Source: Marinomonas sp. KMM3893 (GTDB lineage Bacteria > Pseudomonadota > Gammaproteobacteria > Pseudomonadales > Marinomonadaceae). From it: a DNA stretch of 64,000 bases. Position numbers and translations under genes: made by a program. Below the pieces are notes generated by a model that made no database searches, was not told where the DNA came from, and saw only the letters and a list, made by a program, of their open reading frames with translations. This document shows positions 2,346-63,427 of this stretch, one piece after another. Every line of letters starts with the position of its first letter. The first letter of the stretch is position 1. The stretch is taken from assembly GCF_004352855.1 (NCBI RefSeq), contig NZ_SJSC01000004.1, positions 186,001-250,000 on the forward strand. The letters run 5' to 3'.

Positions 2346-3272
2346 ATGACGATTTTAATGATTGCAGAGCATGACAACAAAAGCTTAAAAGAAATCACCT
2401 TAAATGCGATTACCGCCGCGACTCAAATTGGTGGTGACATTGATGTGCTGGTGGTCGGTGAGAATTGCGGCAGTGCGGCAGAAGCAGCGGCAACCATTAG
2501 TGGCATTCGTCGTGTACGAGTAGCAGACCATGCTTGTTACAACGGCCAGTTGGCTGAAAACGTTGCAGCCTTGATTCAAACGCTGGCGGGCGATTACAGC
2601 CATATCATGGCGCCAACCACCACCAGTGGTAAAAATATTTTGCCGCGCTTAGCTGCGGCTCTCGATACCAGCTATTTCTCAGACATTATCAGTGTAGAAA
2701 GTGCCGATACGTTTAAACGTACTATTTATGCGGGTAATGCCATCGAAACGGTTCAAACCGCCGACAGCATTAAAGTGATGACGGTTCGCGGTACTGCGTT
2801 TGAACTGGCAGCTCAAGATGGCAATGCGCCAGTTGAAGTGGTTTCAGAAGTAACCGATCTAGGGCTGTCTTCGTTTGTGAGTGAAGATTTGGCTGTTTCT
2901 GAACGCCCTGAATTGACCTCGGCCAGCATCGTTATTTCTGGTGGTCGTGGCATGCAAAATGGCGAGAACTTCTCGATCCTTGAAAAAGTGGCGGATAAGT
3001 TGGGCGCTGCGGTGGGGGCATCTCGTGCGGCCGTAGACGCAGGCTTTGTGCCTAACGATATGCAAGTAGGTCAGACCGGTAAAATTGTCGCTCCAGACTT
3101 GTACATTGCCGTGGGTATTTCGGGCGCGATCCAGCATCTTGCTGGTATGAAAGACTCGAAAGTGATTGTGGCCATTAACAAAGACCCTGACGCGCCGATT
3201 TTCCAAGTGGCGGATTACGGTTTGGTGGCGGATCTGTTTGATGCGGTTCCTGAATTGGAACAAGCGCTTTAA
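2346..3272 (+). CDS. etfA: Electron transfer flavoprotein alpha subunit (module A)
   Basis: FAD-carrying subunit of ETF. The C-terminal half holds the family's FAD-binding signature: [29 protein letters not shown] and [13 protein letters not shown] at about residues 220-270. The N-terminal half is the heterodimer scaffold. At 308 aa it is of normal length. It starts directly after the etfB stop. A 10-bp hairpin separates it from the ETF-QO gene downstream. Compared with the module B paralog, the C-terminal half is almost identical while the N-terminal half is clearly diverged, which matches general family constraint. Confidence 0.95.
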
Positions 3273-3292
3273 TAGGTGCGTATAACGAATCT

Positions 3293-3320
3293 GTGCCGCT
3301 GAGGTCAGCGGCACTTATTT
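3293..3320 (+). terminator. Intergenic hairpin between etfA and ETF-QO (module A)
   Basis: Perfect 10-bp stem (GTGCCGCTGA / TCAGCGGCAC) with a two-base loop, followed by TTATTT. The T-rich tail is weak, so it may attenuate rather than stop transcription, setting the ratio of ETF to ETF-QO. Confidence 0.5.
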
Positions 3321-3352
3321 AGTAGAACAAGCGATTGAGAAGGAAATAACTG

Positions 3353-5005
3353 ATGCGGGAATCGATGGAGTTTGATGTCGTTATTGTAGGTGCTGGCCCA
3401 GCGGGTCTGTCTACGGCCTGTCGACTTATGCAGCAGGCACAACAAGCTGAACGTGATATGAGTGTTTGTGTGGTGGAAAAAGGCTCCGAAGTCGGGGCGC
3501 ATATTTTTTCCGGTGCGGTATTAGAGCCTCGTGCCCTGACTGAATTATTTCCCGATTGGGAGGATCGCGGCGCGCCCTTGAATACGCCTGTCATTGGCGA
3601 TGAAATTTATTTGTTTCAAGACGCCGAACGGGCGAAGCGCATTCCGAATAGTTTTGTACCAAAGAGTATGCATAACGAAGGCAATTACGTTATCAGCTTG
3701 GGCAATTTGACCCGCTGGTTGGCAGAACAGGCAGAAGGCTTAGGCGTGGAGATTTTTCCAGGCTTTGCGGCCGCCGAAATCCTGTATCACGAGAATGGTG
3801 CGGTAAAAGGCATCGCCACCGGTGATATGGGCGTGAGCGCGGATGGCAGCCAGAAAGGCAGCTATATGGAAGGCATGGAGCTGCATGCAAAATACACTGT
3901 GTTTTCAGAAGGCTGCCGTGGCCATTTAGGGAAACAATTGCTGGCGAAATACGCGTTAGACGATGGTGTCGATGTTCAACATTACGGCATTGGTATTAAA
4001 GAGTTATGGGACATAGATCCTGCGAAACATAAGCCTGGTTTGGTGGTGCATGGTGCGGGGTGGCCATTGGACAAAGACACCAACGGTGGCTCTTTCTTGT
4101 ATCACGGTGAGAACAACCAAGTGGTCGTGGGTTTAGTGGTGGATTTAAGTTATTCGAATCCCTATTTAGGGCCATTTGATGAGTTTCAGCGAATGAAACA
4201 GCATCCTGTGTTTAAAAACACTTTAGAAGGCGGCAAGCGTGTGTCTTATGGCGCTCGGGCGATGACAAAAGGTGGGCTGAATGCTTTGCCTAAAATGTGT
4301 TTCCCAGGCGGCTTGCTGGTGGGCTGTGATGCCGGAACCTTGAATTTTGCAAAAATCAAAGGCACTCACACCGCGATGAAGAGCGGCATGGTCGCTGCTG
4401 AGACTATTTTTGCCGCTTTACAGACAGACGATGAAGGCGGGAAAGAGTTGAATGCTTTCACTGAGGCGTTGAATGCTTCTTGGCTGTATGACGAGCTGCA
4501 TCGTTCGCGAAACTTTGGGCCGGCGATGCATAAGTTCGGTACCTTCTGGGGGGGCGCGTTTAACTATGTGGATCAGAATTGGTTTAAAGGCAAATTGCCG
4601 TTCACCTTGCATGACAACACGCCGGATTATGCCCAGTTAAAAGAAGCGTCTGAATGTACGCCGATCGAGTATCCGAAGCCGGATGGCAAGATCAGTTTTG
4701 ATAAATTGTCTTCCGTGTTTTTGTCCAATACAAATCATGAAGAAGATCAGCCCTGTCACCTCACGTTAAAAGACGAAAGTGTGCCGGTGAAAAGGAACTG
4801 GGGATTGTTTTCAGGGCCAGAAGCGCGTTTTTGTCCGGCTGGGGTTTACGAGTTTGTCGAAGACCCAGAGAAACACGACATGCGCTTGCAGATTAACGCT
4901 CAAAACTGCTTGCACTGTAAAACCTGTGACATAAAAGATCCGTCTCAGAATATTACTTGGGTCGTGCCTGAAGGAACCGGTGGACCGAACTACCCGAACA
5001 TGTGA
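3353..5005 (+). CDS. Electron transfer flavoprotein-ubiquinone oxidoreductase (module A)
   Basis: Membrane-associated iron-sulfur flavoprotein that reoxidises ETF and reduces ubiquinone. The FAD-binding motif VIVGAGPAGLSTA lies at the N-terminus. The C-terminus carries the [4Fe-4S] cluster cysteines in FCPAGVYEF and NCLHCKTCDIKDPSQNI, followed by the conserved GGPNYPNM ending. At 550 aa it has the full family length. AGGAAAT precedes the ATG at a good distance. It follows etfBA in the same direction after an 80-base gap containing a hairpin. A same-length paralog lies at 10295. Having dedicated ETF-QO copies beside demethylation genes is a known arrangement in bacteria that oxidise N-methylated compounds. 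Confidence 0.95.
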   Translation: MRESMEFDVVIVGAGPAGLSTACRLMQQAQQAERDMSVCVVEKGSEVGAHIFSGAVLEPRALTELFPDWEDRGAPLNTPVIGDEIYLFQDAERAKRIPNSFVPKSMHNEGNYVISLGNLTRWLAEQAEGLGVEIFPGFAAAEILYHENGAVKGIATGDMGVSADGSQKGSYMEGMELHAKYTVFSEGCRGHLGKQLLAKYALDDGVDVQHYGIGIKELWDIDPAKHKPGLVVHGAGWPLDKDTNGGSFLYHGENNQVVVGLVVDLSYSNPYLGPFDEFQRMKQHPVFKNTLEGGKRVSYGARAMTKGGLNALPKMCFPGGLLVGCDAGTLNFAKIKGTHTAMKSGMVAAETIFAALQTDDEGGKELNAFTEALNASWLYDELHRSRNFGPAMHKFGTFWGGAFNYVDQNWFKGKLPFTLHDNTPDYAQLKEASECTPIEYPKPDGKISFDKLSSVFLSNTNHEEDQPCHLTLKDESVPVKRNWGLFSGPEARFCPAGVYEFVEDPEKHDMRLQINAQNCLHCKTCDIKDPSQNITWVVPEGTGGPNYPNM

Positions 5006-5158
5006 TAGCCAAATATGTGGCCGTTAATCTATGGAGTGACAGTGCGCATGTTGTGATAAATGCGTGCTGGCTTGTTTTATAAAAACGAATCGCGTCTGCG
5101 CTATGCAGGCTCAACCAATGACTTTTATCGACTCTAGGAAGCTAAGTAGGCAATTATT

Positions 5159-6031
5159 ATGACAACGAAAAAAACGCAAGAAAATCAGTTTATTTTTAAC
5201 ATTACGTGTAACGCAAGCAGTGGCATAGTGTCATCTGTTACCACGTTTTTGTCTGAACGAGGTTGTTATATTAGCGAACTGTCACAGTTTGATGATCCAG
5301 ATACGAACCACTTTTTTATGCGTGCTGTAGGCTACATAGAAAGCGGGGATAAAACACTGGATGATCTTAACTTAGAGTTTCCTTTTGTCGCAGAACAGTT
5401 TGATATGAAGTGGACCTTGGTGCCTGCATCACAACCTTGTAAGGCGCTGATCATGGTGAGTAAATTCGACCATTGTTTGGACGATTTGCTGTACCGCTTG
5501 CGTAAAGGCGAGCTTAATATGGAGGTCACGGCCATTGTTTCTAACCATTTGGATTTGCGTCCGATGGCTGAACGAGAAGGGATTCGATTTGTTTACCTTC
5601 CGGTTAATAAAGAAAACAAACGTGAGCAAGAGCAAGCCTTGTTGAGCATAGTCGAAGAGACCGGTACTGAGCTGGTGATTCTCGCGCGCTATATGCAAAT
5701 CTTGTCTGACAACTTGTGTACTGAGTTGAAAGGCCGTGCGATCAATATTCACCACTCTTTCTTGCCCGGCTTTAAAGGCGCGAAACCTTACCATCAAGCC
5801 CATGCACGTGGCGTTAAATTGATCGGAGCAACCGCGCATTACATTACGTCTGATTTGGACGAAGGCCCGATTATTGAGCAGTCAGTGCAGATTGTGAACC
5901 ACGCCTTTTCTCCAGAAGCGCTTGTGGCCGCCGGTCGTGATACGGAAACCGTAGCATTGGCTCGTGCGGTGAAATTACACATAGAACACCGTGTGTTTAT
6001 GGATGACAACAAGACCGTAGTGTTTCGCTAA
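5159..6031 (+). CDS. purU: Formyltetrahydrofolate deformylase (module A)
   Basis: Hydrolyses 10-formyl-THF to formate and THF, freeing folate when large amounts of C1 units are released. An N-terminal ACT domain (about residues 10-85) is followed by the formyltransferase fold (about 90-285). The catalytic Asn-His-Asp set is visible: Asn and His in [11 protein letters not shown], and Asp in [11 protein letters not shown]. At 290 aa it is of normal length. folD starts 11 bases downstream behind a strong GGGGAGG site. The 150-base gap upstream may hold an internal promoter, but I cannot define one. The paralog is at 13980. Confidence 0.95.
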
Positions 6032-6042
6032 GGGGAGGCGTT

Positions 6043-6906
6043 ATGACAACCATCATTGACGGAAAAGTCATTTCCGCACAATTGCTTGAGCAGGTAACGG
6101 GTGATGTCATTGAGTTCAAAGCAAAGCACGGCATTACGCCGGGCCTTGCTGTGGTGTTAGTTGGGGATGACCCAGCAAGCCAAGTCTATGTGCGCAATAA
6201 AGTGCAGCGTGCGGAGCAAGTGGGCATTCGTTCTATCAAACACCGCCTTGACGCCAATGTGTCTCAAGAAACCTTGAATGATTTGGTGGCAGAACTGAAT
6301 GCGGACCCTGAGATTCACGGCATCTTGGTGCAATTGCCATTGCCTAAGCATTTAGACGAAGACGAGATTGTGGATGCGATCGCGCCGAGTAAAGACGTTG
6401 ACGGCTTTCATTCTCTGAATGTGGCGGCGCTTGCAACGGGCAAACCGGGCTTGGTGCCTTGTACGCCACAGGGCAGCATGACCATGTTAAGGCAAACCCT
6501 TGGTGATTTAACGGGTTTGCACGCGGTAGTAATAGGGCGCTCCAACATTGTTGGTAAGCCAATGGCAGCCTTGTTATTGCAGGCCAATTGCACAGTGACC
6601 ATGGTGCATTCGCGTACCCGAGACATTGCTTCTGTGTGTCGTCAGGCAGATATATTAGTGGCTGCAGTTGGCTCGCCAAAGTTGGTTAACGCCGATTGGG
6701 TCAAGCCAGGCGCGACCGTGATTGACGTGGGCATCAATGTAGAAATGCTGGATGGCGTGCGTAAGTTATGTGGCGATGTGGATTTTGAGAGCGTGAGCAA
6801 GGTGGCTGGCGCGATCACTCCTGTACCTGGTGGCGTTGGCCCAATGACAATTGCCAATCTATTGGCCAATACCCTGCAAGCGGCGCAAGCACAAATATCG
6901 GCTTGA
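6043..6906 (+). CDS. folD: Bifunctional methylene-THF dehydrogenase/methenyl-THF cyclohydrolase (module A)
   Basis: Interconverts 5,10-methylene-THF and 10-formyl-THF. The conserved active-site elements are present: Tyr and Lys in SQVYVRNK (about residues 48-55), Gln in ILVQLPLP, Asp in KDVDGFH, and the PGGVGPMT motif near the C-terminus. At 287 aa it matches the family. The start has an excellent GGGGAGG ribosome binding site. It is the last gene of module A and is followed by a strong terminator. Together with PurU it forms the route from methylene-THF to formate. It is the more standard of the two FolD copies in this window. Confidence 0.95.
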
Positions 6907-7033: not shown

Positions 7034-7897
7034 TTAGGACTTGCCTTTCCAAGGGATTAATTTGGCTTCGATTTTACGCATGATGATGTCGATGCTGTAA
7101 CCAATCAAGCCGACAATAATAACGCCCAATACGACAATGTCGGTGGCTAAAAATTTACTCGCCACCATGATCATATAACCTACCCCTGAATTCGCGGCTA
7201 CCAGCTCAGCGGCCACTACGGTTCCCCAACAAACCCCCATGGCAACGCGCATACCTGTAAAGATCTCCGGCAAAGAGTTAGGTAGGATAACGTGCTGTAA
7301 GATTTGTCTTTTGTTAGCGCCTAACGAGTGGGCCGCATGGATCTTATTCAATTTGATGCTACTCACCCCAGCTCGTGCCGCGATGACCATGATCCAAAGG
7401 GCTGCAAAGAAAATTAGCAAAATCTTTGAGCGCTCACCAATACCAGACCAAATGATGACCAACGGGATAAACGCAAGCGGGGGAATAGGGCGGAAAAATT
7501 CGACAATGGGGTCAAACCAGCCACGCACTTTTTCAGATAAACCCATGGCAAAGCCTAGGGGAATACCCACAAGACACCCTAGGCTAAAGCCAACTAGGAT
7601 GCGATAAAGGCTCGCCCAAATATGCTCCCATAAGGTAAAACCGCGGTAGCCGTCTTGGGAAATGGTGATGAATTGTTGCCATACGGTACTCGGTGCAGGC
7701 CAAAAAATCGGATTGATAAAGCCTAATGTGCTACCAAAGTGCCACACAACGGCGAGGCTAAAAACAGAAATGATGCTCCAGAAACGGCCTTTTCCGATGG
7801 CTTCGGTATCGCCAAAGGTCGTGGTTTTTTGCTTGTTAATACCTGATTTACTCATGCCTGAGTAGTGTTTGAATGATTCAAGTAAGGACATGTTCAT
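7034..7897 (-). CDS. TauC/SsuC-type ABC transporter permease
   Basis: Inner-membrane permease of a taurine/sulfonate/nitrate-family importer. At 287 aa it has about six hydrophobic segments, and the EAA loop is visible as HAAHSLGANKRQILQHVILP. Its start overlaps the end of the ATPase gene by four bases (ATGA), so they are co-translated. It is the last gene of a three-gene operon running right to left (binding protein, ATPase, permease). The operon sits between two oxidative C1 modules, which suggests a small N-methylated or sulfonated solute, but the sequence does not prove a substrate. Confidence 0.9.
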   Translation of the reverse strand: MNMSLLESFKHYSGMSKSGINKQKTTTFGDTEAIGKGRFWSIISVFSLAVVWHFGSTLGFINPIFWPAPSTVWQQFITISQDGYRGFTLWEHIWASLYRILVGFSLGCLVGIPLGFAMGLSEKVRGWFDPIVEFFRPIPPLAFIPLVIIWSGIGERSKILLIFFAALWIMVIAARAGVSSIKLNKIHAAHSLGANKRQILQHVILPNSLPEIFTGMRVAMGVCWGTVVAAELVAANSGVGYMIMVASKFLATDIVVLGVIIVGLIGYSIDIIMRKIEAKLIPWKGKS

Positions 7898-8703
7898 ATT
7901 CCAACCGCCTGATTATTTCCCATAATTTCTTCTTCCATTCCCCATATCATCGATAAGACTTCTTCTCGCTTGGCGATGAATTCCGCCGAGGTTTTGACCT
8001 CTCTAGGGTCTTTTGTGAGGCCCTCTTCGGCAAAGGGCAAACGGTACTCTTGTTTGATTCGTCCAGGTCTTGGTGCCATAACAAATAGACGTTCACCTAA
8101 GAACAAGGCTTCTTCGACGCTGTGGGTGATCAAAATAATGGTTTTACCGGTGTCTTTCCAAAGCTTAAGAACCAAGCTTTGCATCTTCTCTCGGGTTAAT
8201 GCGTCCAGCGCCCCAAGGGGTTCGTCCATTAAGATGATGTCAGGGTTGTTGGCTAGGCATCTGGCGAGTGCAACCCGCTGTTGCATCCCCCCAGAAAGCT
8301 CATAAATGGCCTTGTCGCCAAAGTCTTGTAAGCCTACCGTGTCTAATAAATCGTCGACGATTTTACTGGTTTCTTCACTTGAGACTCCTGCCATTTTGGG
8401 ACCAAAGGCAATGTTTTCAGCGACATTCATCCATTCGAATAATGCCCCTTGTTGAAATACCATGCCGCGATCAGGGCCAGAGTGCGTCAGTTTGGTAGTG
8501 CCATTTATGACCGCCCCAGAAGTGGGTGCTAAAAAGCCCGCGATGATATTTAACAGCGTACTTTTACCGCACCCCGAAGGCCCTAGAATGGCGAGCAGCT
8601 CGCCTTGCTTAAGGTTAAAGCTTACGTCTTGTAAGGCTTCAACCCGATTGCCATTGGGCTCATCGAAGGTCATCGAAATGTGGTTTGCGTTCAATGCAGA
8701 CAT
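7894..8703 (-). CDS. TauB/SsuB-type ABC transporter ATP-binding protein
   Basis: Cytoplasmic ATPase that powers the adjacent permease. Walker A is GPSGCGKST (residues 41-49), the signature is LSGGMQQRVALARCL, Walker B is IILMDEPLGALD, and the switch histidine is in ITHSVEEAL. At 269 aa it is of normal length. Its sequence is in the taurine/nitrate/sulfonate importer class. The binding-protein gene ends 24 bases upstream of the start. Confidence 0.93.
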   Translation of the reverse strand: MSALNANHISMTFDEPNGNRVEALQDVSFNLKQGELLAILGPSGCGKSTLLNIIAGFLAPTSGAVINGTTKLTHSGPDRGMVFQQGALFEWMNVAENIAFGPKMAGVSSEETSKIVDDLLDTVGLQDFGDKAIYELSGGMQQRVALARCLANNPDIILMDEPLGALDALTREKMQSLVLKLWKDTGKTIILITHSVEEALFLGERLFVMAPRPGRIKQEYRLPFAEEGLTKDPREVKTSAEFIAKREEVLSMIWGMEEEIMGNNQAVGI

Positions 8704-8727
8704 TATGAATACCTTATGTTGATTGGA

Positions 8728-9744
8728 TTAATTGACGTTTTTGAAGTAGCTGGCATCGATCGTGGCGCTGTAGTCATCCAAAGCGCTGGGGATTTGCTTT
8801 TGCTGGACAAAAAAGTCGGCAACTTCTTTAGTGAAGGTCTGCACACCGCCACCCATCCAATAGGGAGAAATTTGCTGCTCTTTAAGTGGGAAGGTGAAGA
8901 GATCGAGGATTTGATTCGAGTCTTGTAGTGATAAACCAGAGGCTTTCGCAATAATAGGCTGTTGCGCTTTCGGATCGTTTTTATAGGCGGTGTTGGCGTC
9001 GTTGGTGACTTTTAAAAACTCGGTGACTAAAGCGGGGTGTTGTTTGGCGAATTTATTGTTGGCAGAAATGACATCAAAGGATCGAATGCCAAAAGATTCT
9101 TGTTGTTGTGCGGTCATTAATACTTGGCCGTATTGCTTCATACGACGTAGAGCGCCGCCCCAACCACAAGCCATGGAAACATCGCCACGAGCCAGCGCGG
9201 CAGCGCCATCGGCTGGTGCCATGTCTAATAGATGAACCTTGTTACTGTCGACGTCTAACTGTTTCAGAGTTTTGAGCATTTTGTAATGGGAGACGGTGCC
9301 AAAGGGAACCGCGATGTTTTTGCCTTCCAGTTGTTTGGCATTGGCGGTGGTAATGTGGGCTTGTTTTCTGACCACGCAATTATCATTTTCAGCGTAAGAG
9401 ACGGCGATTCCCACCATGGTAATAGGTAAGCCTTTGGAGACCGCAATGGTAAAAGGCACCAAACCTTGAGAGTAGGCTATGTCGACTCCCCCAGAGGCCA
9501 TTGCAGCAGACATAGCAGTACCAGAATCAAAGGCGTGCCATTCGACTTTTACCCCCATTTCTTTGCTGTAGGTATCATTCACTTGAGCAACTTGATTGGC
9601 CGTTGGCCATTCTAAAAAATACCCAATGGAAACGGTGCTCGGCTTATCGTCGGCCAACGCTAGGCTAGCAGAAGTGGCGATGGTGCCCATTGCCAGAGAC
9701 CCTATCAGTGTTGAAACCATCTTTGTCATAACAACCTTTTTCAT
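8728..9744 (-). CDS. TauA-like periplasmic substrate-binding protein
   Basis: Captures the transported solute in the periplasm. The chosen ATG gives MKKVVMTKMVSTLIGSLAMG, a clear signal peptide ending near SLALA, and has a GAGG ribosome binding site seven bases upstream. The longer open frame would add 16 hydrophilic residues before the signal and is less likely. The mature part follows the TauA/SsuA fold (VSIGYFLEWPTANQVAQ, WHAFDSGTAMSAAMASGGVDIA). At 338 aa it is of usual length. Ligand-contact residues cannot be assigned to taurine with certainty, and context suggests the ligand may instead be an N-methylated compound. Confidence 0.9.
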   Translation of the reverse strand: MKKVVMTKMVSTLIGSLAMGTIATSASLALADDKPSTVSIGYFLEWPTANQVAQVNDTYSKEMGVKVEWHAFDSGTAMSAAMASGGVDIAYSQGLVPFTIAVSKGLPITMVGIAVSYAENDNCVVRKQAHITTANAKQLEGKNIAVPFGTVSHYKMLKTLKQLDVDSNKVHLLDMAPADGAAALARGDVSMACGWGGALRRMKQYGQVLMTAQQQESFGIRSFDVISANNKFAKQHPALVTEFLKVTNDANTAYKNDPKAQQPIIAKASGLSLQDSNQILDLFTFPLKEQQISPYWMGGGVQTFTKEVADFFVQQKQIPSALDDYSATIDASYFKNVN

Positions 9745-10294: not shown

Positions 10295-11947
10295 ATGACA
10301 CGCGAAAGTATGGAGTTTGATGTCGTTATTGTCGGGGCAGGACCGGCTGGATTATCGACGGCTTGTCGTTTAATGCAACAAGCGAATAACGCAGGCGAAG
10401 AGTTAATGGTGTGCGTGGTTGAAAAGGGTGCGGAAGTGGGGGCGCACATTTTATCTGGCGCGGTCGTTGAGCCAAGAGCGCTGGATGAATTGTTTCCAGA
10501 CTGGCAAGCGTTAGGTGCGCCATTGACCGTTCCTGTGGTGGAGGACCAAATTTATTATCTAAACAGTGCTAAGAAATCGATCAAAATCCCCAATGCCTTA
10601 GCGCCTAAGCCGATGCATAACCATGGTAACTATGTTGCCAGTGTGGGTAACCTTTGTCGTTGGTTGGCAGAGCAAGCGGAGCAATTGGGGGTGGAGATAT
10701 TTCCAGGCTTTGCGGCGGCGCATATTATCTATGATGAAGAAAGCGGTCGTGTGGCGGGGATTGGCACCGGCGATATGGGGGTTGATGCGGATGGAAACGC
10801 AAAGGATAACTACATGGCGGGCATGGATTTGCTGGCCAAATACACGGTATTTACAGAAGGGTGCCGTGGGCATCTGGGCAAAGAGCTGATTAATAAGTTT
10901 GCGTTAGATGAAGGTAAAGACCCTCAGCATTATGGTCTCGGCATTAAAGAATTATGGGAAATCGATGAGAGTTTGCATCAGCCTGGATTGGTGTTACATG
11001 GGGCCGGCTGGCCGCTGAGTGAATCGAACTCCACAGGCGGTTTCTTTTTATATCATGGGGATAATAACCAAGTAGTGGTTGGTTTGATTACCGATTTAAA
11101 TTACAGCAACCCGAATTTAAGCCCTTACGATGAATTTCAGCGTATGAAACATCATCCTTTGATTGCTCAGTATTTATCGGGAGCCAAACGCTTGTCTTAC
11201 GGGGCGAGAGCCATTGCCAAAGGAGGCTTGAACTCCTTGCCTAACATGACCATGCCGGGGGCTTTGTTACTGGGGTGTGATGCAGGAACCTTGAATTTCT
11301 CTAAAATTAAAGGCACTCACACTGCCATGAAATCCGGCATGTTGGCCGCAGAAGTGCTGTTTCCTGAGCTGATGAAAAAAGACCAAGGAGGGCATGATCT
11401 TGTTCAGTACCATGAGCATTTCAAACAGTCTTGGTTATACGATGAACTGTATAAAGGGCGGAACTTTGGTTCTGCGTTACACAAATACGGCACCTTTGTC
11501 GGCGGTATGCTGAACGTCATTGACCAAAACATCATGCGCTTGCCGTTTACTTTGCGCGATCAAAAGCCCGATTATTTGTGTCTAAAGCCCGCCAGTGAAT
11601 GCGCGGATATTCAGTATCCTAAACCGGATGGCAGACTGAGCTTTGATAAAAGTTCGTCGGTCTTCTTGTCGAATACCAATCATGAAGAGAACCAACCTTG
11701 CCACTTACATTTAAAAGATCTGTCGGTGCCTGTGCTGCATAACTTGCCGACCTTTAATGAGCCAGCTCAACGCTTTTGTCCTGCCGGTGTTTATGAGGTG
11801 CTGGAGAACGAGGACGGTAGCCCACGTTTCCAAATCAATGCGCAGAATTGTGTGCATTGCAAAACCTGCGACATTAAAGATCCGGCGCAGAACATTACCT
11901 GGCGAGTGCCTGAAGGGGGTGGTGGACCGAATTATCCGAACATGTAA
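10295..11947 (+). CDS. Electron transfer flavoprotein-ubiquinone oxidoreductase (module B)
   Basis: Paralog of the 3353 gene with the same 550-aa length. It has the N-terminal FAD motif VIVGAGPAGLSTA and C-terminal iron-sulfur cysteines in FCPAGVYEV and NCVHCKTCDIKDPAQNI. The start is MTRESMEFDVV after GGGGTAAAT. It transfers electrons from ETF to ubiquinone at the inner membrane. In module B it leads the cluster instead of following etfBA, and an inverted-repeat operator lies upstream. A 280-base gap with a hairpin and a new promoter separates it from etfB, so it is probably a separate transcription unit under shared control. Confidence 0.95.
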   Translation: MTRESMEFDVVIVGAGPAGLSTACRLMQQANNAGEELMVCVVEKGAEVGAHILSGAVVEPRALDELFPDWQALGAPLTVPVVEDQIYYLNSAKKSIKIPNALAPKPMHNHGNYVASVGNLCRWLAEQAEQLGVEIFPGFAAAHIIYDEESGRVAGIGTGDMGVDADGNAKDNYMAGMDLLAKYTVFTEGCRGHLGKELINKFALDEGKDPQHYGLGIKELWEIDESLHQPGLVLHGAGWPLSESNSTGGFFLYHGDNNQVVVGLITDLNYSNPNLSPYDEFQRMKHHPLIAQYLSGAKRLSYGARAIAKGGLNSLPNMTMPGALLLGCDAGTLNFSKIKGTHTAMKSGMLAAEVLFPELMKKDQGGHDLVQYHEHFKQSWLYDELYKGRNFGSALHKYGTFVGGMLNVIDQNIMRLPFTLRDQKPDYLCLKPASECADIQYPKPDGRLSFDKSSSVFLSNTNHEENQPCHLHLKDLSVPVLHNLPTFNEPAQRFCPAGVYEVLENEDGSPRFQINAQNCVHCKTCDIKDPAQNITWRVPEGGGGPNYPNM

Positions 11948-11996
11948 TTGCGTGCGATAAGACAACTTATATCACGGATGAAATCTGCTCTTTGCT

Positions 11997-12029
11997 TTCA
12001 TTGGCTGGCGTTTCTTGCGAGCCAATGAA
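11997..12029 (+). terminator. Hairpin downstream of ETF-QO (module B)
   Basis: Ten-bp stem (TTCATTGGCT / AGCCAATGAA) with a 13-base loop, 50 bases after the stop. No T-run follows directly, so it is a weak or rho-assisted terminator. Confidence 0.4.
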
Positions 12030-12131
12030 GGTGCCACCTTGTTTGCCTTCCTTTTTACACCGCTTTAATGCGGCTGTTACTCCCTGTTTTTCAGTATTTT
12101 TGCCTTGCCTAAGATTTATTCAATAAAACTA

Positions 12132-12199
12132 TTGACATAAAAAATGAGATAAACAATCATATAAATGAAATTATTAAAGTAAATTTCATTTATATGATT
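12132..12199 (+). promoter_or_regulatory. Promoter and large palindrome upstream of etfB (module B)
   Basis: A perfect TTGACA at 12132-12137 could be a -35 element, with AATCAT at 17-bp spacing as a weak -10. Overlapping that -10 is a palindrome with 18-bp perfect arms (AATCATATAAATGAAATT at 12155-12172 and its complement at 12182-12199). It contains the AAATGAAA-N13-TTTCATTT element also found upstream of ETF-QO. This placement fits repression by a dimeric regulator; the regulator is not known. Confidence 0.6.
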
Positions 12200-12227
12200 T
12201 TTGTTTTCTTCTTTGTTGGAGCGAAAA

Positions 12228-12974
12228 ATGAAAGTGCTAGTCGCCGTTAAACGAGTTGTGGATGCCAATGTTCAAATTCGAGTGAAGTCAGATAATTCTG
12301 GCGTTGATGTGTCGAATGTCAAAATGTCGATTAACCCTTTCTGCGAAATCGCGGTGGAAGAGGCGGTTCGATTAAAAGAATCTGGCGTGGCTGAAGAAGT
12401 GATTGTGGTAAGCGTGGGAGATGATGCTTGCCAAGAGCAATTGAGAACCGCGCTTGCGCTAGGGGCTGATCGCGCTATTCAAGTGAAAGCAGAGTCGGAG
12501 CTTCAGCCTTTGGCCATCGCGAAGTTACTCAGCAAGATTGTCGAGCGTGAAGAGGTTTCTCTCGCTATTTTAGGTAAGCAATCTATCGATGGGGATAACA
12601 ATCAGACGGGCCAGATGTTGGCGGCGTTGGCAGGTATGTCCCAAGGTACCTTTGCGTCTAGCTTAGAGATCAAAGACGGCGAGGCGATTGTGACTCGTGA
12701 AATCGATGGCGGGCTGCAAAAAGTTGCGTTGAAATTACCAAGCTTGATCACCACGGATTTGCGCCTCAATGAGCCACGTTTTGCCTCATTGCCTAACATT
12801 ATGAAAGCCAAACGTAAGCCACTGGTACAGATCACGCCAGAAGAGTTGGCTGTGGATATTTCCCCAAGACTGACCACCTTAGAAATCAATACTCCAGCTG
12901 CCCGCGCGGTAGGCGAACGAGTGGCAAATGTGGCTGAGCTTGTCGAGAAGTTAAAAGTGGAAGGAGTATTGTAA
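12228..12974 (+). CDS. etfB: Electron transfer flavoprotein beta subunit (module B)
   Basis: Second EtfB of the window. The ATG at 12228 (MKVLVAVKRV) has a TTGGAG site and matches the paralog start; an upstream frame adding nine residues is not supported. It has the nucleotide segment GKQSIDGDNNQTGQML and the docking loop [12 protein letters not shown]. Length is 248 aa. Its stop overlaps the start of etfA (TAATG). It is preceded by the palindromic operator, so this module is probably inducible. Its likely partner is the dehydrogenase encoded at 14890. Confidence 0.95.
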   Translation: MKVLVAVKRVVDANVQIRVKSDNSGVDVSNVKMSINPFCEIAVEEAVRLKESGVAEEVIVVSVGDDACQEQLRTALALGADRAIQVKAESELQPLAIAKLLSKIVEREEVSLAILGKQSIDGDNNQTGQMLAALAGMSQGTFASSLEIKDGEAIVTREIDGGLQKVALKLPSLITTDLRLNEPRFASLPNIMKAKRKPLVQITPEELAVDISPRLTTLEINTPAARAVGERVANVAELVEKLKVEGVL

Positions 12975-13921
12975 TGACTATTTTAGTAATCGCAGAACAC
13001 AACAATCAAACATTGGCACTAGCAACAGGCAATACTCTAGCGGCAGCGCAAGCACTGGCTAGTAAAACCGGTAGCGAAGTGGCTTTGCTGGTGGCGGGAG
13101 AAGATTGCCAAAGTGTCGTTGAAGAAGCGGCGAGCACGCAAGGGGTTGCCAAAGTATGGGTGGCCAATTGCGCGGCGTTAAAACAACAGCTTGCTGAAAA
13201 TCTAGCGCCTCTCGTGGTTGATCTAGTGGCCGAAAAGGGCATCAGTCATGTGCTAGTTTCTTCCACCGCAGCGGGTAAGAACATTGCACCACGCCTTGCA
13301 GCACTGCTCGATGTTGCGCAAATTTCCGACCTAATAGAAGTGATTGATGCTGATACCTTTGTGCGTCCAATTTACGCAGGCAATGCCTTAGCTACGATCA
13401 AAAGTAGCGATGCGGTAAAAGTTCTGACGGTACGCAGTACGGCGTTTGAGGCCATTGAATTTAGTGGAGGCGATGCGCTTATAGAGTCTCTGTCAGACGC
13501 GGTTGACCAAGGGTTGTCGCGTTTTATTAGTGAAGAGGTGGTGGCGTCAGATCGACCTGAATTGACCTCTGCTAAGGTGATTATTTCAGGCGGTCGAGGC
13601 ATGAAAAATGGCGACAACTTTGTGCTGCTGGAAAAGGTGGCTGACAAAATTGGCGCGGCCGTTGGGGCATCCCGTGCGGCGGTAGACGCAGGTTTTGTCT
13701 CGAATGACATGCAGGTGGGTCAAACGGGCAAAATTGTCGCACCGGATTTGTACATTGCGGTGGGCATTTCAGGCGCGATCCAGCATCTGGCCGGTATGAA
13801 AGATTCTAAAATCATTGTGGCCATCAATACAGATGAAGAAGCGCCTATTTTTAATGTTGCTGATTACGGCTTGCAAGCGGACCTTTTTGACGTATTGCCA
13901 GAATTGGAAGCCGCCCTTTAA
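12974..13921 (+). CDS. etfA: Electron transfer flavoprotein alpha subunit (module B)
   Basis: FAD-binding subunit of the second ETF, 315 aa. The FAD signature [19 protein letters not shown] and [13 protein letters not shown] is present in the C-terminal half. The N-terminal half differs from the module A copy, including a short insertion, so the two are old paralogs rather than a fresh duplication. It overlaps the etfB stop by one base. A GGGCATTT hairpin lies between it and purU. Confidence 0.95.
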
Positions 13922-17423: not shown

Positions 17424-18269
17424 ATGATGGCGGCACTTATATTAGATGGTAAAGCATTAGCAAAGTACAGAGAGTCTCAATTGAAAAACGCGGTAAAGGC
17501 GCTCACCAAGGCCGGGGCGGAAGTGCCGACCTTAGCGACTATTTTAGTGGGGGGAGATCCAGCCTCTGCGACCTATGTTCAGATGAAGCAAAATGCTTGT
17601 CAGCGTGTGGGTATGGACTCGGTTAAAATTGAGATGCCAGAAGAGACTTCGACAGAGCAATTACTGGCGCAAATCCAGATATTAAACAAAGACCCTAAAA
17701 TTTGCGGGATTCTATTGCAGCACCCGGTGCCAGCACAGATCGATGAAAGGGCCTGTTTTGATTCCATTGCCATTGAAAAAGATGTGGATGGCGTGACCAC
17801 TCAAGGTTTTGGCTTGATGTCGATGGGCGAGTTGGCGTTTGGCTCAGCTACTCCTGCCGGTATTATGACCTTGTTGCATCATTACGATGTGCCTTTAGCT
17901 GGTAAACATGCGGTGGTAGTAGGGCGCAGTCCTATTTTAGGTAAGCCGATGGCAGCCATGCTGTTAAATGCCAATGCGACCGTCACTGTGTGTCATTCAC
18001 GCACTGAAAATTTAGCGGCTCTGGTGGCTCAAGCAGACATTGTGATCGGAGCTGTGGGCCAGCCAGAATTGATTAAAGCTGAGTGGATTAAAGATGGCGC
18101 TGTGGTGGTGGACGCGGGTTATCACCCTGGTGGTATTGGTGACATAGATAAAACGGGTTTGGACGAGCGAGCGATGGCGGTAACGCCGGTGCCAGGTGGT
18201 GTGGGTCCAATGACGATTAATGCCTTGATTAGTCAAACCCTAGAGTCTGCAAGGATAGCGGCACAATAG
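17424..18269 (+). CDS. folD: Bifunctional methylene-THF dehydrogenase/cyclohydrolase (module B)
   Basis: Second FolD, 281 aa. The active-site Tyr and Lys are in ATYVQMK, Gln in GILLQHPVP, Asp in EKDVDGVT, and PGGVGPMT lies near the end. It belongs to a variant with LLQHPVP instead of the LVQLPLP of the copy at 6043, so the two folD genes are not recent duplicates. It completes the module B path from methylene-THF to the PurU substrate. The start is ATGATG after ACAGGA. Two hairpins follow the gene. Confidence 0.93.
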
Positions 18270-23723: not shown

Positions 23724-24302
23724 ATGCAATATATTGATGTTTTGATAAGCGTTTTATTCTGATTGTTAATGTTTTTATTTTCATTTTTAAAAGTGGTTGT
23801 TTGCTTTTCACTATGATCAAGCAGTCTTTTTTTGTTCGGCGATTTCTTTGTGTATTATGAGTTTTCATTAAAATCTATTTGTATTTTTGAAAATGACGCT
23901 TATAAAATTTGATTTATATCAATAAAAGAGACGGTTTTCTTTTTTTGCTTGTTGTTTTTTTAATCATTATTTTTCGAATTATGACGTTAAGTCATTTTTA
24001 AAATATTTGTTTTCTATTTTTTTCAAATCTTACCAATCGGTTATATTTCTCAATTTGATCAAGTGTTTATCTTGGTGCATGTGTCTTTTTTTCTTTAGTG
24101 AGACGGACTTTTTCATGAATTTCCATGCTTATTTTCTGGATGAAAAACGTACGATTTTTGTTTTCAAAGAAACTATGTAGTTTTTTGTTAGTAAAGAAAG
24201 TGTCATTCCTTCTGGATTTTTTCTACTTATTTGTTGATCTGTATGGCTTTTTTGTAGTTAAATGGCCTTTCTTTACAAAAGTAAACGGAATTTTTACAAA
24301 AG
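23724..24302. other. AT-rich intergenic region
   Basis: About 580 bases, strongly AT-rich with many T-runs. A 71-codon frame at 24125-24340 is Phe-rich from the T-runs, has no ribosome binding site and overlaps the next gene, so I do not accept it. The region probably holds the promoter of the envelope cluster. Confidence 0.6.
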
Positions 24303-25079
24303 ATGGACCAGCCAGTAGCTCAAAAGACGCCTATTTATAAGCGTATACAAGCCATTACCGTTTTAATTGCCTCTGTGATGATTTCTTTTGGATCATGGGG
24401 CGATACCAAAGAACTTCTTATTGAAATTTACGATAGCAGCATTAGTCACTTTACAAATAATGTAGAGTTTTCTCATCTTGAGAACGTTAAAGTCGGTGGT
24501 AATCTTGATTTTATCGAACAAACGTTTGGCATTGCGAAAGTCATAAAGTCTTCCAAAACAGTTAAAGATCTTGAATATCGTTATTACACAGATCGTAAAT
24601 ATTTATTGGCTGTTGCCACACAAAAATCACGTATTGTTGCTTATCAAGTTGTCAGTTTACGTCGCTCTTTTGACCCTTCGTTGCCGTTTTCTGATTTCCA
24701 ATTAGGTTCTTTTTTCTACTCTGATTATTCAAATGGTTTTGACGACTCTCGATTGGATAACGCCAACATAACTTACTACATGGAAGCGCATTCCTTAGGG
24801 CGTGCAGGGTTGTTTTTGAATCAATATTTCGCCTATGTGGGGTACGGTGCCGATTATTCTGAATTGGCGGACGCGGGCGTCGCGAGCAAAAAGGCCATCG
24901 CGGCATTGGATCAGGCCATTTTAGAGTCCAATGAAAAACAGATTAAGACAAGGCTGCAAGCGCTCAGACGTGAAGTGCGCCCTAATGTTTTTGTCGTAGG
25001 AGACATTGATGCATCTACCGCTGCCGACATGCTACTCACTCGTTATGAATACGCGGTTTATTTTAAGGATCAATTATGA
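24303..25079 (+). CDS. ETEC_3214-like hypothetical protein, first gene of envelope cluster
   Basis: A 258-aa protein that resembles the ETEC_3214 domain family, by memory of the family and not by search. One hydrophobic segment near the N-terminus (AITVLIASVMISFGSWG, about residues 17-33) suggests a membrane anchor or uncleaved signal with the rest in the periplasm. No catalytic motif is visible. Its stop overlaps the start of the next gene (ATGA), which ties it to the lipoprotein cluster. The start codon has no strong ribosome binding site. Its function is unknown. Confidence 0.8.
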   Translation: MDQPVAQKTPIYKRIQAITVLIASVMISFGSWGDTKELLIEIYDSSISHFTNNVEFSHLENVKVGGNLDFIEQTFGIAKVIKSSKTVKDLEYRYYTDRKYLLAVATQKSRIVAYQVVSLRRSFDPSLPFSDFQLGSFFYSDYSNGFDDSRLDNANITYYMEAHSLGRAGLFLNQYFAYVGYGADYSELADAGVASKKAIAALDQAILESNEKQIKTRLQALRREVRPNVFVVGDIDASTAADMLLTRYEYAVYFKDQL

Positions 25080-26011
25080 GAGTTTTTGTCTTTTTCGCGC
25101 TCGGTTTATTGCTAACCGCTTGTCAGAGTATTAAGGAAACTACGCCGGATTGGTGGACCTCTCCAGTAGCGGACAGTGAGCAATGGATTTACGGCGCAGG
25201 GGAAGGGTATAACCTGACTCAAGCCAATCAACAGGCGTTAGCCAATGTCGCCGGAAAATTAAAAACTGAAATCAGTTCCTCTCTTTCTCATAGAACACAA
25301 GAAACCACGCAAGCGCTGGATGAATACGCTGACCGTCAGCTTAACTCCACCGTTGCAACGGTATCGCTTAGTCATTATGAAACGATCAAAACCGCCGTGC
25401 TAGACACCAAAACCCTGACCCTTGTTCGGGTGAATCGTGCGGCTTTGGCCAAAGAGTGGTTGCGCCAGTATAACGCCACGGCCAGTGATGTTCATGCGGT
25501 GATGGCCGACACTCGAGAAAATCGATTCCAGTGGTGGTTAAAAGCCAAAGCGCTGATTCCTGATGCTCGTTCTGCTGATCAGCTGGCTGTTTTATGGTCC
25601 GGCTTGATGAATCAAGAAAAAGCATCCCATCTTGAAGATCAGCTTAGTGCGGTGATCGATAAAAGAAAGCCAAGCGTAGAGCTTAAAGGCCCTGAATCCA
25701 GCATTAATCAGGCGATTAGAGCGAGCTTGTTGGATGACGGCTTGCGTCTAGGTCGATGCCGAGTTTGTGATGTCACCATTCGCTACAGCACTCAGTTCAG
25801 TAGTGACACCTTGTTTGGGCAAAGTGTGGTCAATATGACGTTTTTAGGATCGTTAACAGATCGTGACGGCGAGGTGTCTTCAGCTCGTTGGCAGGTAAGA
25901 GCTTCTTCTGCTTCAGGTGCATCAGTGGGGAAAAAAGCCACGCTGGTGTTGGCTGTACAGAAGCTAAAAAGAGAAGGTCTATGGAAGGCCTTCGGTATGG
26001 AAACTAACTAG
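25076..26011 (+). CDS. LPP20-family outer-membrane lipoprotein (311 aa)
   Basis: Lipoprotein with signal MRVFVFFALGLLLTAC; the lipobox Cys16 is followed by Gln, so sorting to the outer membrane is expected. The N-terminal part (PDWW, EQWIYGAGEGYNLTQANQQA) is typical of LPP20/FlgP-type proteins. The C-terminal part, from about residue 200, has a Cys pair (CRVCDV) and looks like a second small domain. The start overlaps the preceding stop. Its role in the envelope is unknown. FlgP relatives support the Vibrio flagellar motor, but no flagellar genes are near, so I do not carry that function over. Confidence 0.8.
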   Translation: MRVFVFFALGLLLTACQSIKETTPDWWTSPVADSEQWIYGAGEGYNLTQANQQALANVAGKLKTEISSSLSHRTQETTQALDEYADRQLNSTVATVSLSHYETIKTAVLDTKTLTLVRVNRAALAKEWLRQYNATASDVHAVMADTRENRFQWWLKAKALIPDARSADQLAVLWSGLMNQEKASHLEDQLSAVIDKRKPSVELKGPESSINQAIRASLLDDGLRLGRCRVCDVTIRYSTQFSSDTLFGQSVVNMTFLGSLTDRDGEVSSARWQVRASSASGASVGKKATLVLAVQKLKREGLWKAFGMETN

Positions 26012-26026
26012 GTAGAGTCCTTAACT

Positions 26027-27067
26027 ATGTTCAAGAAAAAACTTTTTGTAATGGCCAGTGTAGTAGGCGCAATGGCGCTTGCAGGTTGTACTCCAGAATT
26101 GGCGAAAACTCAATTAACATCAGCCCCTATGGCTGAGCTTGCTCCAACCAAACAGCAATTAGCGGAACAGCTCAAAGGGCAAGGCAGCAAAATTATTGTA
26201 GCGCCTGTTGAGTACAGTACGCCTGATGGTAAGTTTTTTATTGGTGAAGTCTACGATGACCTTACTCAGCGTGTGATGAAATCAGGTAACACGGTAGTTG
26301 ATCGCAAGTTGGCGCTAAAACTGAAAGACGAGCTTATTGCTGCTGAGAAATCTGGCAAGTTCCGTACTAGCGGACCGTCTGTTGCTGACGTTGCTCTGAT
26401 GAGCAAAATTGTTACGCTGAACAGTAGTAAAAGTTTCCATAAAGCGCGCTCTTGGGTAGATGATAAGGGTGAACGTCATCGTGTTGAAGCTTACTGCAGC
26501 TTCTCTGCGAAAGCGAAAATGTACGTTCGTGCTTATAAAATGCCTTCCATGGAGTTGATTAATACGTACGAATACGATGGTTCAGAAAGCTTCAGTTCTG
26601 AAACTAATAATTCACGTTGCCCAGTGAGCGATTCTCAACTGCGCGGTTTATACAGCGAAACATTGGCTGAAGCGGTGAAATCTGGTTCTTTTCAAACTTT
26701 GAATGACCTGGCGCCAGAAGCGTATGTTATTGAGCGTCGCGATGAAGTGGGCAAGCCAGGCGAGAGCTCTTTGTTCCGCGTGACCATCAGTAAAAAACAA
26801 GGTGCAATAGAAGGCGCAACGGTTAACTTCTACCACAAAGAAAAACAAGTGACTCCTATCACTAATGAAACCCGCATCCAAGAAGTATTAATTGGTGAAG
26901 GTGAAGTGACGAAAAACGTTGATGCGACTGGTGCTTATGTTTACGTAGGCGATGAAGAAGTCATTAATAAAATCAAGATCGGTGATGTTGCTAAATTGTC
27001 TCATGGCAAATGTGACGTGAATGAAACAGAAGTTCTTGGTTCTTGTATTAAAATTCCTGGCTTATAA
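26027..27067 (+). CDS. CsgG/LpoB-like lipoprotein
   Basis: A 346-aa lipoprotein with lipobox LAGC (Cys21). The central domain (IIVAPVEYSTPDGKFF, GEVYDDLTQRVMKSGNTVVD) resembles the CsgG/LpoB/FlgO-type fold, in which a small protein sums up effects on murein synthases or pores. The C-terminal region (GAYVYVGDEEVINKIKIGDV) looks like the small beta domain found at the end of FlgT-like proteins. It lies 15 bases after the previous gene. Cysteines are conserved in pairs, consistent with a periplasmic location. The family call is by pattern only. Confidence 0.7.
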   Translation: MFKKKLFVMASVVGAMALAGCTPELAKTQLTSAPMAELAPTKQQLAEQLKGQGSKIIVAPVEYSTPDGKFFIGEVYDDLTQRVMKSGNTVVDRKLALKLKDELIAAEKSGKFRTSGPSVADVALMSKIVTLNSSKSFHKARSWVDDKGERHRVEAYCSFSAKAKMYVRAYKMPSMELINTYEYDGSESFSSETNNSRCPVSDSQLRGLYSETLAEAVKSGSFQTLNDLAPEAYVIERRDEVGKPGESSLFRVTISKKQGAIEGATVNFYHKEKQVTPITNETRIQEVLIGEGEVTKNVDATGAYVYVGDEEVINKIKIGDVAKLSHGKCDVNETEVLGSCIKIPGL

Positions 27068-27081
27068 GTAGGTAGAGTTAA

Positions 27082-27657
27082 ATGAAATTATTTAAAGTTG
27101 CGTTCATTGCGGCGTCTGTCAGTGCTATGGCCGGTTGCAGCATGATTCCTGATACGTTTTCAGATTGTTCATACCCAGACTCTCCGGGTGAATCTGCACC
27201 TTCATGGATTTGCAGTCAGCCTGTTGAAGGTCTTGAGCTTCAAGCTGTAGGTTATTCTAAGAAAATGGCATCAGGCCCAGGCATGATGCGTGATGTTGCT
27301 GCGACAGAAGGTCGTGCTCGTCTAGCGGGTGAGTTCTCTACCGATGTTGCTAGTCGTATGGCTCGTGTTACCAAAGACAGTACGGTCAACGGTGAAAACA
27401 CAAACTCTGACGTGTCAGAGCGAGTTCAAAAAACCTTGGCGGCGATGACATTGCAACGCGCTCGCGTTTATCGCACACAGTTTAGCCCTGCGGGTAACTT
27501 GTACTTGCTTGTTGGTCTAGATAAAGACGCTTACAACATGAATGTTGAATCTGTGGCTAAGTCGGCCATTGGTGAAGATTCTCCTGCGTTATACCAGAAG
27601 TTTTTAGCCGATGAAGCGGATAAGTCACTTGATGGCATCCAGAAAAATATGAACTGA
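27082..27657 (+). CDS. LPP20-family lipoprotein (191 aa)
   Basis: Lipoprotein with signal and lipobox MAGC (Cys19). The mature part has the LPP20 pattern: a tryptophan near the N-terminus (APSWICSQP), a glycine-containing strand (LQAVGYSKKM), then a long helix (RDVAATEGRARLAGEFSTDV). It is the second member of this family in the operon and is followed by a terminator. It probably works with the two lipoproteins upstream in one outer-membrane assembly; this is inference from co-localisation. Confidence 0.8.
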   Translation: MKLFKVAFIAASVSAMAGCSMIPDTFSDCSYPDSPGESAPSWICSQPVEGLELQAVGYSKKMASGPGMMRDVAATEGRARLAGEFSTDVASRMARVTKDSTVNGENTNSDVSERVQKTLAAMTLQRARVYRTQFSPAGNLYLLVGLDKDAYNMNVESVAKSAIGEDSPALYQKFLADEADKSLDGIQKNMN

Positions 27658-27669
27658 TCATCAGTTGAT

Positions 27670-27697
27670 AAAAAAGGGGCTTCGGCCCCTTTTTTTA
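27670..27697 (+). terminator. Terminator after LPP20 lipoprotein gene
   Basis: A-rich stem ending in GGGGC, a TTCG tetraloop, then GCCCC and a T-run. This is a classic intrinsic terminator. It separates the lipoprotein genes from the transglycosylase gene, which may be reached only by read-through or its own promoter. Confidence 0.95.
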
Positions 27698-27734
27698 GGC
27701 TTGGGTTTTAGGTTTACATTTTAAGGTGTAAAAA

Positions 27735-28832
27735 ATGAAAAAAATTTATCTTATATTACTTATGTTCGCAACCGCTTCTGCTCAGGCGCAAAGCTATGCA
27801 GAATGGAAGCAGAGTCGTCAAGAAGGCTATCAAGCCTATGCGCAAAGCTATCTGGCTCGCTATAAAGCCTATCAAGAAGAAGTGGTTAAGCAGTGGGGGG
27901 ACTATGCCAAGTTGTCTAGTGCTCATGACTATATTTTGTATAAAAAAGACCTGCATCAGCGCGTGATTCTGGATTATCAGAACAATCAGATTCTGATTGA
28001 ATCGTTGAATGGCAAAGATCTGGATGTAAAGCAGGTGTTGTCAGAGTTGGCTGGCACATCAGTAGGTGGTGCTTTGTCTAAGGACCCAGTGTTGCCAAAC
28101 GTTAAGGTTCAGTCTGAAGCAGAAAGCTTATTGAAGACCATTGCAGGCTCCGATGATGTGGTGTCTGTGATGGCGAAGGCAAGCATAGTGCAAGGTGATG
28201 GCGACGCCACCAGTAAGCGCATTCAGCAAGTACGAATCAGTTTGCCGGCGCAAAGTGTGGTGGATCGTGCTAAGCCGTTTTTCCCAGCGGCGACCAAAAT
28301 GTCAGCGGAGTTTGATGTGGATCGCAGTTTGATCTTGGCGGTAACACAAACAGAGTCTAGCTTTAATCCGTTGGCTCAGTCGCCTATTCCAGCGTTTGGT
28401 TTAATGCAGATTGTGCCGGATTCAGCGGGCAAAGATGTCAATGTGCATATCAATAAAAAGGACAAAAGTCCGGACGTAGACACCTTGTTTAAGCCGGATG
28501 AAAACATTCGTTTTGGTGCGGCGTATTTGCATATATTAGATAGTCGTTACTTGAAAGACATCAAGGATGAGAGAAGTCGTTTGTATTGCACTATCGCAGC
28601 TTATAATACAGGTGCGGGCAACGTTGCGAGTGTTTTTCACCCAGATAACAAGCGTTCGTTGAGCGCTGCTGTTGAGGTGATTAATCAGCTTTCGCCTGAT
28701 GAAGTGTACCAGCAGCTGATTGCAAAACTGCCGTACCAAGAAACCAGAACCTATTTAAAAAAGGTCAGTACTGCGCTGCAACAATATCAGCAGCTTGAGT
28801 CGGCGGAAGTGGCTAAGGCGCAATCGCTTTAA
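27735..28832 (+). CDS. MltC-like murein lytic transglycosylase
   Basis: A 365-aa periplasmic protein. The signal peptide MKKIYLILLMFATASAQA has no lipobox cysteine, unlike MltC of enteric bacteria. A DUF3393-like domain (about residues 20-130, HDYILYKKDLHQRVILDYQN) is followed by an SLT domain (about 195-340). In the SLT domain, ESSFNPLAQSPIPAFGLMQI contains the catalytic Glu and the glycine-rich motif, and AAYNTGAGNV is the substrate-groove motif. It cleaves glycan strands of peptidoglycan. Next to three lipoproteins, one of LpoB type, it suggests a cell-wall remodelling unit. Confidence 0.88.
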   Translation: MKKIYLILLMFATASAQAQSYAEWKQSRQEGYQAYAQSYLARYKAYQEEVVKQWGDYAKLSSAHDYILYKKDLHQRVILDYQNNQILIESLNGKDLDVKQVLSELAGTSVGGALSKDPVLPNVKVQSEAESLLKTIAGSDDVVSVMAKASIVQGDGDATSKRIQQVRISLPAQSVVDRAKPFFPAATKMSAEFDVDRSLILAVTQTESSFNPLAQSPIPAFGLMQIVPDSAGKDVNVHINKKDKSPDVDTLFKPDENIRFGAAYLHILDSRYLKDIKDERSRLYCTIAAYNTGAGNVASVFHPDNKRSLSAAVEVINQLSPDEVYQQLIAKLPYQETRTYLKKVSTALQQYQQLESAEVAKAQSL

Positions 28833-59921: not shown

Positions 59922-59941
59922 TACTGTATGAATGTACAGTA
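59922..59941 (+). promoter_or_regulatory. LexA box (SOS box) of umuDC
   Basis: TA-CTGT-N8-ACAG-TA, a perfect match to the gammaproteobacterial SOS box, 14 bases before the umuD start. It predicts repression by LexA and induction by DNA damage. Confidence 0.95.
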
Positions 59942-59955
59942 TTTTGGGTGTGGCT

Positions 59956-63270: not shown

Positions 63271-63395
63271 ACATCTGGTTAAGCTTGCCAGTGTTATTTT
63301 AAATATTAAATAAAATAATTATTTTAATTATCTAATACGATTATTTCCTCTATTTATCGCTATATTTTGTTAGGTGATAATGGGCTTCCGCTCTA

Positions 63396-63415: not shown

Positions 63416-63427
63416 AGGAATGTTTTT

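Follow-up and report, generated by a model that had tools for sequence, protein, structure and literature searches.

The nearest known systems to the gene cluster described here are operons that pair LpoB with an LPP20 lipoprotein, the Helicobacter hp1454-hp1457 genes, and the FlgO, FlgP and FlgT proteins of the flagellar outer rings. The cluster, referred to below as the cassette, lies at positions 24303-28832 of a 64,000-nucleotide stretch of the Marinomonas sp. KMM3893 genome (contig NZ_SJSC01000004.1, positions 186,001 to 250,000; hereafter the window). It encodes an ETEC_3214-domain protein, two LPP20 lipoproteins (LPP20a and LPP20b), a CsgG-type lipoprotein and an MltC-family lytic transglycosylase. 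Like the LpoB operons, of which L016 in the same genome is an example, the cassette places an LpoB-type lipoprotein (PF13036 in the case of LpoB) next to an LPP20 lipoprotein. Unlike LpoB, the cassette protein lacks PF13036, is longer (346 amino acids) and has a C-terminal domain, and the cassette brings its own hydrolase and a probable inner-membrane protein. The likeness to Helicobacter lies in matches of LPP20a to PDB entry 4kzs, which we take to be HP1454, and of LPP20b to 5ok8, which is Lpp20 (HP1456). Presumably hp1457 lies in the same operon as hp1454 and hp1456, and we know of no MltC or ETEC_3214 partner at hp1454-hp1457. Passages of one report assign HP1454 and HP1456 to the same operon (PMC11756786), and passages of another name HP1457 an LpoB homologue and discuss it alongside MltD and AmiA, which hydrolyze the wall (PMC11394524).

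According to sections of a paper on the Campylobacter motor, FlgP, Helicobacter pylori Lpp20 and FlgT have a common SHS2-like fold, and ring formation accompanies an insert in that fold (PMC12222027). The cassette shares with the outer-ring proteins the LPP20/SHS2 domain (of FlgP and FlgT), a FlgT_C-like tail in one relative and a FlgT_N-like neighbor at one locus (L091), but it has no flagellar genes nearby, carries its own transglycosylase and is mobile. Because FlgT and FlgP are related to it by domain, the flagellar parallels are informative despite the absence of flagellar genes. The likeness to the CsgG curli channel rests on the family domain, predicted in two relatives (L091 and L092); the cassette differs in its lack of nearby curli genes and in its extra C-terminal domain. 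Canonical MltC of Escherichia coli has the same family, Mltc_N-SLT layout and catalytic residues as the cassette enzyme, whereas the cassette copies lack a lipobox and form a separate clade. ETEC_3214 was described, in a study of an enterotoxigenic E. coli strain, as a protein activated by CfaD and without an assigned function (PMC5554520). Each part of the module belongs to a known family; the five-gene combination is apparently undescribed, as no account of it was found in the literature searched by its protein families.

The features of the cassette in the window, with the five genes taken from the listing of open reading frames (ORFs), are as follows.

23724-24302, strand not applicable: AT-rich upstream region (26% GC), a probable promoter region
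24303-25079, plus strand: ETEC_3214-domain protein, 258 amino acids (NF043066, 182.2 bits; cut-off 35)
25076-26011, plus strand: LPP20a lipoprotein, 311 amino acids, N-terminal LPP20 domain (PF02169, 27.5 bits; cut-off 25.9) and C-terminal extension; lipobox ending C-Q-S
26027-27067, plus strand: CsgG-type lipoprotein, 346 amino acids, 'LpoB-like' in the first-pass annotation; lipobox ending C-T-P, relatives match CsgG PF03783
27082-27657, plus strand: LPP20b lipoprotein, 191 amino acids (PF02169, 29.0 bits; cut-off 25.9)
27676-27696, plus strand: intrinsic-terminator-like hairpin between LPP20b and mltC (GGGGC-TTCG-GCCCC followed by 7 T)
27735-28832, plus strand: MltC-family lytic transglycosylase, 365 amino acids, predicted to be unlipidated, catalytic Glu207 (SLT domain, 8e-24)

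The genes are separated by -4, 15, 14 and 77 bp, the first value being the 4-bp overlap of the ETEC_3214 and LPP20a genes. The first-pass annotation had described a cluster of this composition, and all five ORFs were recovered at their positions on the plus strand. Its remark that no flagellar or curli genes are near also held, since none was found in the window (flanks of 17.4-34.3 kb by Pfam, other ORFs of at least 150 amino acids by eye).

We examined 48 genomes of the genus Marinomonas for the genes. The CsgG-type gene was present in 6/48, as were ETEC_3214 and strong matches to LPP20a and to the cassette kind of MltC, and all four occurred in the identical six genomes (G000, G011, G024, G025, G026 and G047). 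Weaker LPP20a matches, up to 38.6 bits, were found in 22 further genomes of the genus. MltC-type matches in 28 further genomes reached up to 230 bits, compared with at least 670 bits for the cassette kind; no second MltC match was detected in G000, G011 or G025. One gene order was common to all six copies. Analysis of the flanks placed the window, the G025 copy and a decayed second G011 copy (L017, contig C34) at one common site and the G026 and G047 copies at another, with the intact G011 copy and the G024 copy elsewhere. The decayed G011 copy consists of ETEC_3214, an LPP20a remnant and a truncated CsgG-type gene, and in G026 the LPP20a gene is split by a frameshift. Constant gene order in differing flanks, together with the decayed copies, argues that the cluster is a mobile unit subject to decay, and on these sequence comparisons we regard it as a discrete, horizontally moving five-gene module. 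A tblastn search of plasmids with two CsgG-type proteins returned no match.

Beyond the genus, CsgG-type family profiles found three genomes outside Marinomonas among 194 of the order and two further ones among 369 of the class. The phylum search gave 9/398, of which one was the window's genome and two were weak and were dropped. Family f228, which looks like Vibrionaceae by marker genes in the neighborhood, gave 14/141 (two already known from the phylum search), and family f185 gave 12/138, of which six were strong, two of these already known. We left out of the counts the decayed L017 copy, two weak matches (L093 of G598 and one in G016) and the six weak f185 genomes (E values of 8.6e-6 to 1.7e-4); the two of these six that were inspected, L138 and L139, carry short CsgG-type profile matches of about 1e-6. 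The remaining 33 strong loci, each counted once, are six from Marinomonas (the window and L018-L022), L029-L033, L087-L092 and L122-L137. Co-located with the CsgG-type gene were LPP20a in 30 loci, LPP20b in 27, MltC in 27 and ETEC_3214 in 25. All five genes stood together in 25 of the 33 loci, covering nine genera and four families, and the set was complete in 14/14 f228 loci. Searches that started from ETEC_3214 revealed five loci without a CsgG-type gene (L037, L038, L084, L085 and L086), and MltC adjoined ETEC_3214 in each. The shared six genomes and the complete loci show that the genes are linked beyond chance; the neighborhood analysis, which the first-pass annotation had named as a refuting test, did not reduce the association to chance linkage or to a known system. 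Clustering of flank proteins (35 loci, 21 genera) yielded only LysR regulators as a gene recurring in at least three genera, at a threshold of E <=1e-6 and half coverage that could miss diverged partners. A conserved sixth gene was therefore rejected, and the module is taken to be these five genes.

Several loci carry additional or substituted genes. At the transglycosylase position, L032 has a 504-amino-acid protein (5003-6517) with an N terminus similar to the one in the cassette MltC; a transglutaminase-like Cys/His/Asp pattern can be seen in it by eye, and it has no Pfam or NCBIfam match. In L087 (11005-12414) and L088 (11794-13203) the module is immediately followed by an extra gene, which in L087 encodes a papain-type protease (Pfam, 1e-12). 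The L087 papain-type gene and the L032 enzyme are local features. In a Marinomonas genome without the cassette (G015, L065), an LPP20b-type gene adjoins a gene for an MltC-type protein that is unlipidated and begins with a twin-arginine-like sequence, and this pair is a possible two-gene form of the module.

We then considered the three lipoproteins. A lipobox was found in 31/31 rows of LPP20b, 32/33 of the CsgG-type protein and 28/33 of LPP20a, and none of these lipobox rows has Asp at position +2. In E. coli, a lipoprotein without Asp at +2 is sorted to the outer membrane; because of this rule, LPP20a, LPP20b and the CsgG-type protein are predicted to be outer-membrane lipoproteins. The LPP20a profile matched PDB 4kzs ('LPP20 lipofamily protein') at 1.1e-14, and the LPP20b profile matched PDB 5ok8 (LPP20 lipoprotein) at 2.6e-6. 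A paralogue of LPP20b with 35% identity is also encoded in the window's genome, next to a pnp-like gene (L015, 5754-6413).

The window CsgG-type protein has no Pfam match of its own, and HMMER searches against solved structures gave nothing meaningful for its family. CsgG PF03783 scored above its cut-off of 20.8 in two of the 16 aligned family members, L091 and L092 (35.2 and 27.6 bits), which suggests by homology that the protein belongs to a CsgG-related family. It probably carries a FlgT_C-like tail, as suggested by a FlgT_C match of 0.019 in the L092 protein. At L091 the CsgG-type gene adjoins a gene for a FlgT_N-like protein (27.8 bits, just below the cut-off of 28.8). An identity as LpoB was rejected: PF13036 matched neither the window protein nor any of the 16 aligned members, and when hhalign was run with the LpoB of this genome, the alignment was limited to the signal peptide. 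The true LpoB of this genome is encoded at L016 (PF13036, 135.9 bits) with its own LPP20 partner. Consequently, the earlier idea that the cassette protein would act as LpoB does, by activating murein synthases, is not supported; the protein is more likely of CsgG/FlgT type.

The window enzyme matched Mltc_N weakly and scored 190.9 bits with NF008670, the model for MltC, short of the cut-off of 375, and its closest solved relatives are MltC-type chains (3.4e-42). Its N terminus is signal-peptide-like and has no lipobox. We aligned 38 MltC-type rows (32 from cassettes, five lipidated references and one other) and built a tree from them. The catalytic Glu was kept in 38/38 rows. A lipobox was found in 0/32 cassette copies, in agreement with the non-lipidated enzyme first noted in the window; the lipobox rule flagged 4/5 lipidated references, and the fifth (L068) shows a lipobox by eye. 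In the tree, the five lipidated MltC formed a clade of their own (100/100), separate from the enzymes of the cassettes; the L092 enzyme was placed beside that clade, weakly supported and on a long branch. Both kinds of MltC are found at L123. The separate clade and the presence of both kinds at one locus argue against an origin of the cassette enzyme from the MltC of each host. It is predicted to be an active-looking murein hydrolase without a lipid-anchor signal.

An N-terminal stretch of 17 residues with a Kyte-Doolittle value above 1.6 occurs in 25 of the 30 ETEC_3214 rows, and in 27 positive charge is higher before the stretch than after it; L038 is a fragment. The protein probably has one N-terminal transmembrane helix in the inner membrane, with the remainder in the periplasm. 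HMMER searches against solved structures gave nothing meaningful. BamE PF04355 was matched by 2/21 aligned members, at best 4.8e-4, and for this reason we treat a BamE-like fold as no more than a lead.

In the window, the hairpin that separates LPP20b from mltC has a folding energy of -16.2 kcal/mol when its A/T flank is included. We counted such hairpins with a purpose-written script whose thresholds were set after the window hairpin had been noticed by eye; a standard terminator scan of the window did not include it among its results. A terminator-like hairpin was present 3' of LPP20b in 20/26 loci, and in 0/27 after LPP20a and 0/27 after the CsgG-type gene. At L031, LPP20b ends the cluster, so the hairpin between LPP20b and mltC is counted as 19/23 loci where mltC directly follows, the exceptions being L030, L087, L088 and L123. 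The hairpin sequence differs between Marinomonas and f228. We read the hairpin as a putative dose control of the enzyme.

Together, these features could well reflect scaffolded, dose-limited wall cutting by a mobile five-part trans-envelope module, which is our preferred, tentative reading. LPP20a, LPP20b and the CsgG-type protein would be sorted to the outer membrane and oligomerize into a ring- or disk-like scaffold like FlgP, FlgT and CsgG. The soluble MltC-type enzyme would dock on this scaffold, which would stand in for the missing lipid anchor and confine the cutting of peptidoglycan to its own site; the scaffold would thus hold and gate a dedicated wall-cutting enzyme. The inner-membrane-anchored ETEC_3214 protein would tie the assembly across the periplasm, and the terminator would hold the enzyme at a lower level than the scaffold. 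The module would probably serve to open and brace the wall for an envelope-crossing item, or to couple outer-membrane and wall remodelling. A more specific version seems rather unlikely: a transferable, self-sufficient machine in which the three outer-membrane lipoproteins, as members of the FlgP/FlgT/CsgG fold class, assemble into a non-flagellar ring that captures a dedicated lytic transglycosylase and, with an inner-membrane tether, provides regulated wall passage for a large cargo or machine. The module bears on the question of how enzymes that cut the wall are kept at their proper sites in Gram-negative cells. As a compact natural unit it encodes enzyme, probable scaffold and membrane tether together, yet genetically separable, and it supplies a genetic context for ETEC_3214. 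The first-pass annotation had suggested an undescribed unit controlling the link between outer membrane and peptidoglycan; the predicted outer-membrane lipoproteins, the active-looking murein hydrolase and the literature search uphold the unit, whereas its control function is one that we infer.

Several results weigh against scaffolded cutting by a five-part module. One or more of the five genes is missing from 8/33 CsgG-type loci (L029, L031, L032, L033, L091, L092, L134 and L137): L029 is incomplete at a contig edge, L031 has no ETEC_3214, L032 has neither a recognized SLT enzyme nor ETEC_3214, and L033 holds the CsgG-type gene alone. E. coli H10407 carries ETEC_3214 by itself on an island, with no partner genes in the stretch read. 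LPP20a has no visible lipobox in 5/33 rows. Two AlphaFold models, each from five close sequences, were poor (mean predicted local distance difference test scores of 42.6 and 37.0) and gave no support for a ring. Finally, a neighborhood of type VI secretion system (T6SS) and extracellular contractile injection system (eCIS) genes, which speaks for the preferred reading where it surrounds all six loci of genus g547, is limited to that one genus.

The strongest rival is a regulator of peptidoglycan homeostasis with no passage function, in which the lipoproteins would gauge how far the outer membrane lies from the wall and turn the dedicated transglycosylase on or off, as LpoA and LpoB do for synthases or NlpI for endopeptidases. 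At L085 and L086, the MltC-ETEC_3214 pair lies directly beside a true LpoB and LPP20 group (PF13036 match run for L085). At L134, the CsgG-type/LPP20a pair lies beside NlpI (7892-8809; 344.9 bits, cut-off 250), and the LpoB homologue HP1457 is discussed with MltD and AmiA in the passages cited above. However, the cassette lipoprotein is itself not LpoB, and a housekeeping regulator would not be expected in as few as 6/48 Marinomonas genomes or at varying positions, so that we consider this explanation possible, though on the unlikely side.

A helper for contractile injection machines (T6SS or eCIS), opening the wall for their assembly or release, is improbable. It would account for genus g547 of family f228, where all six loci (L124, L126 and L128-L131; flanks L140-L151) lie between T6SS and eCIS clusters, with the families checked in 4/6. 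Yet neither system was seen around the Marinomonas copies or in the flanks read of the other f228 loci (inspected by eye, for 6/8 over more than 15 kb and for some on a single side), and the g547 site may be a hot spot for accessory islands in one lineage. The T6SS/eCIS, NlpI, LpoB-group and papain-type neighbors are local and not general. Just as doubtful is a mobile island of accessory defence that protects the envelope from phage, predators or compounds toxic to it, which would suit the patchy, mobile distribution, the decayed second copy in G011 and the low GC content at third codon positions of two genes, but none of the five proteins matched a PADLOC defence model (0/5) and no known defence gene was recognized by eye in the flanks.

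Elsewhere in the window, we noted by eye two sets of electron-transfer flavoprotein subunits with their oxidoreductase (1596-5005 and 10295-13921) and two folD-like genes (6043-6906 and 17424-18269; one backed by Pfam). A UmuDC-like pair lies at 59932-61673, and a second UmuD-like gene, also recognized by eye, lies close to the window end at 63374-63877.

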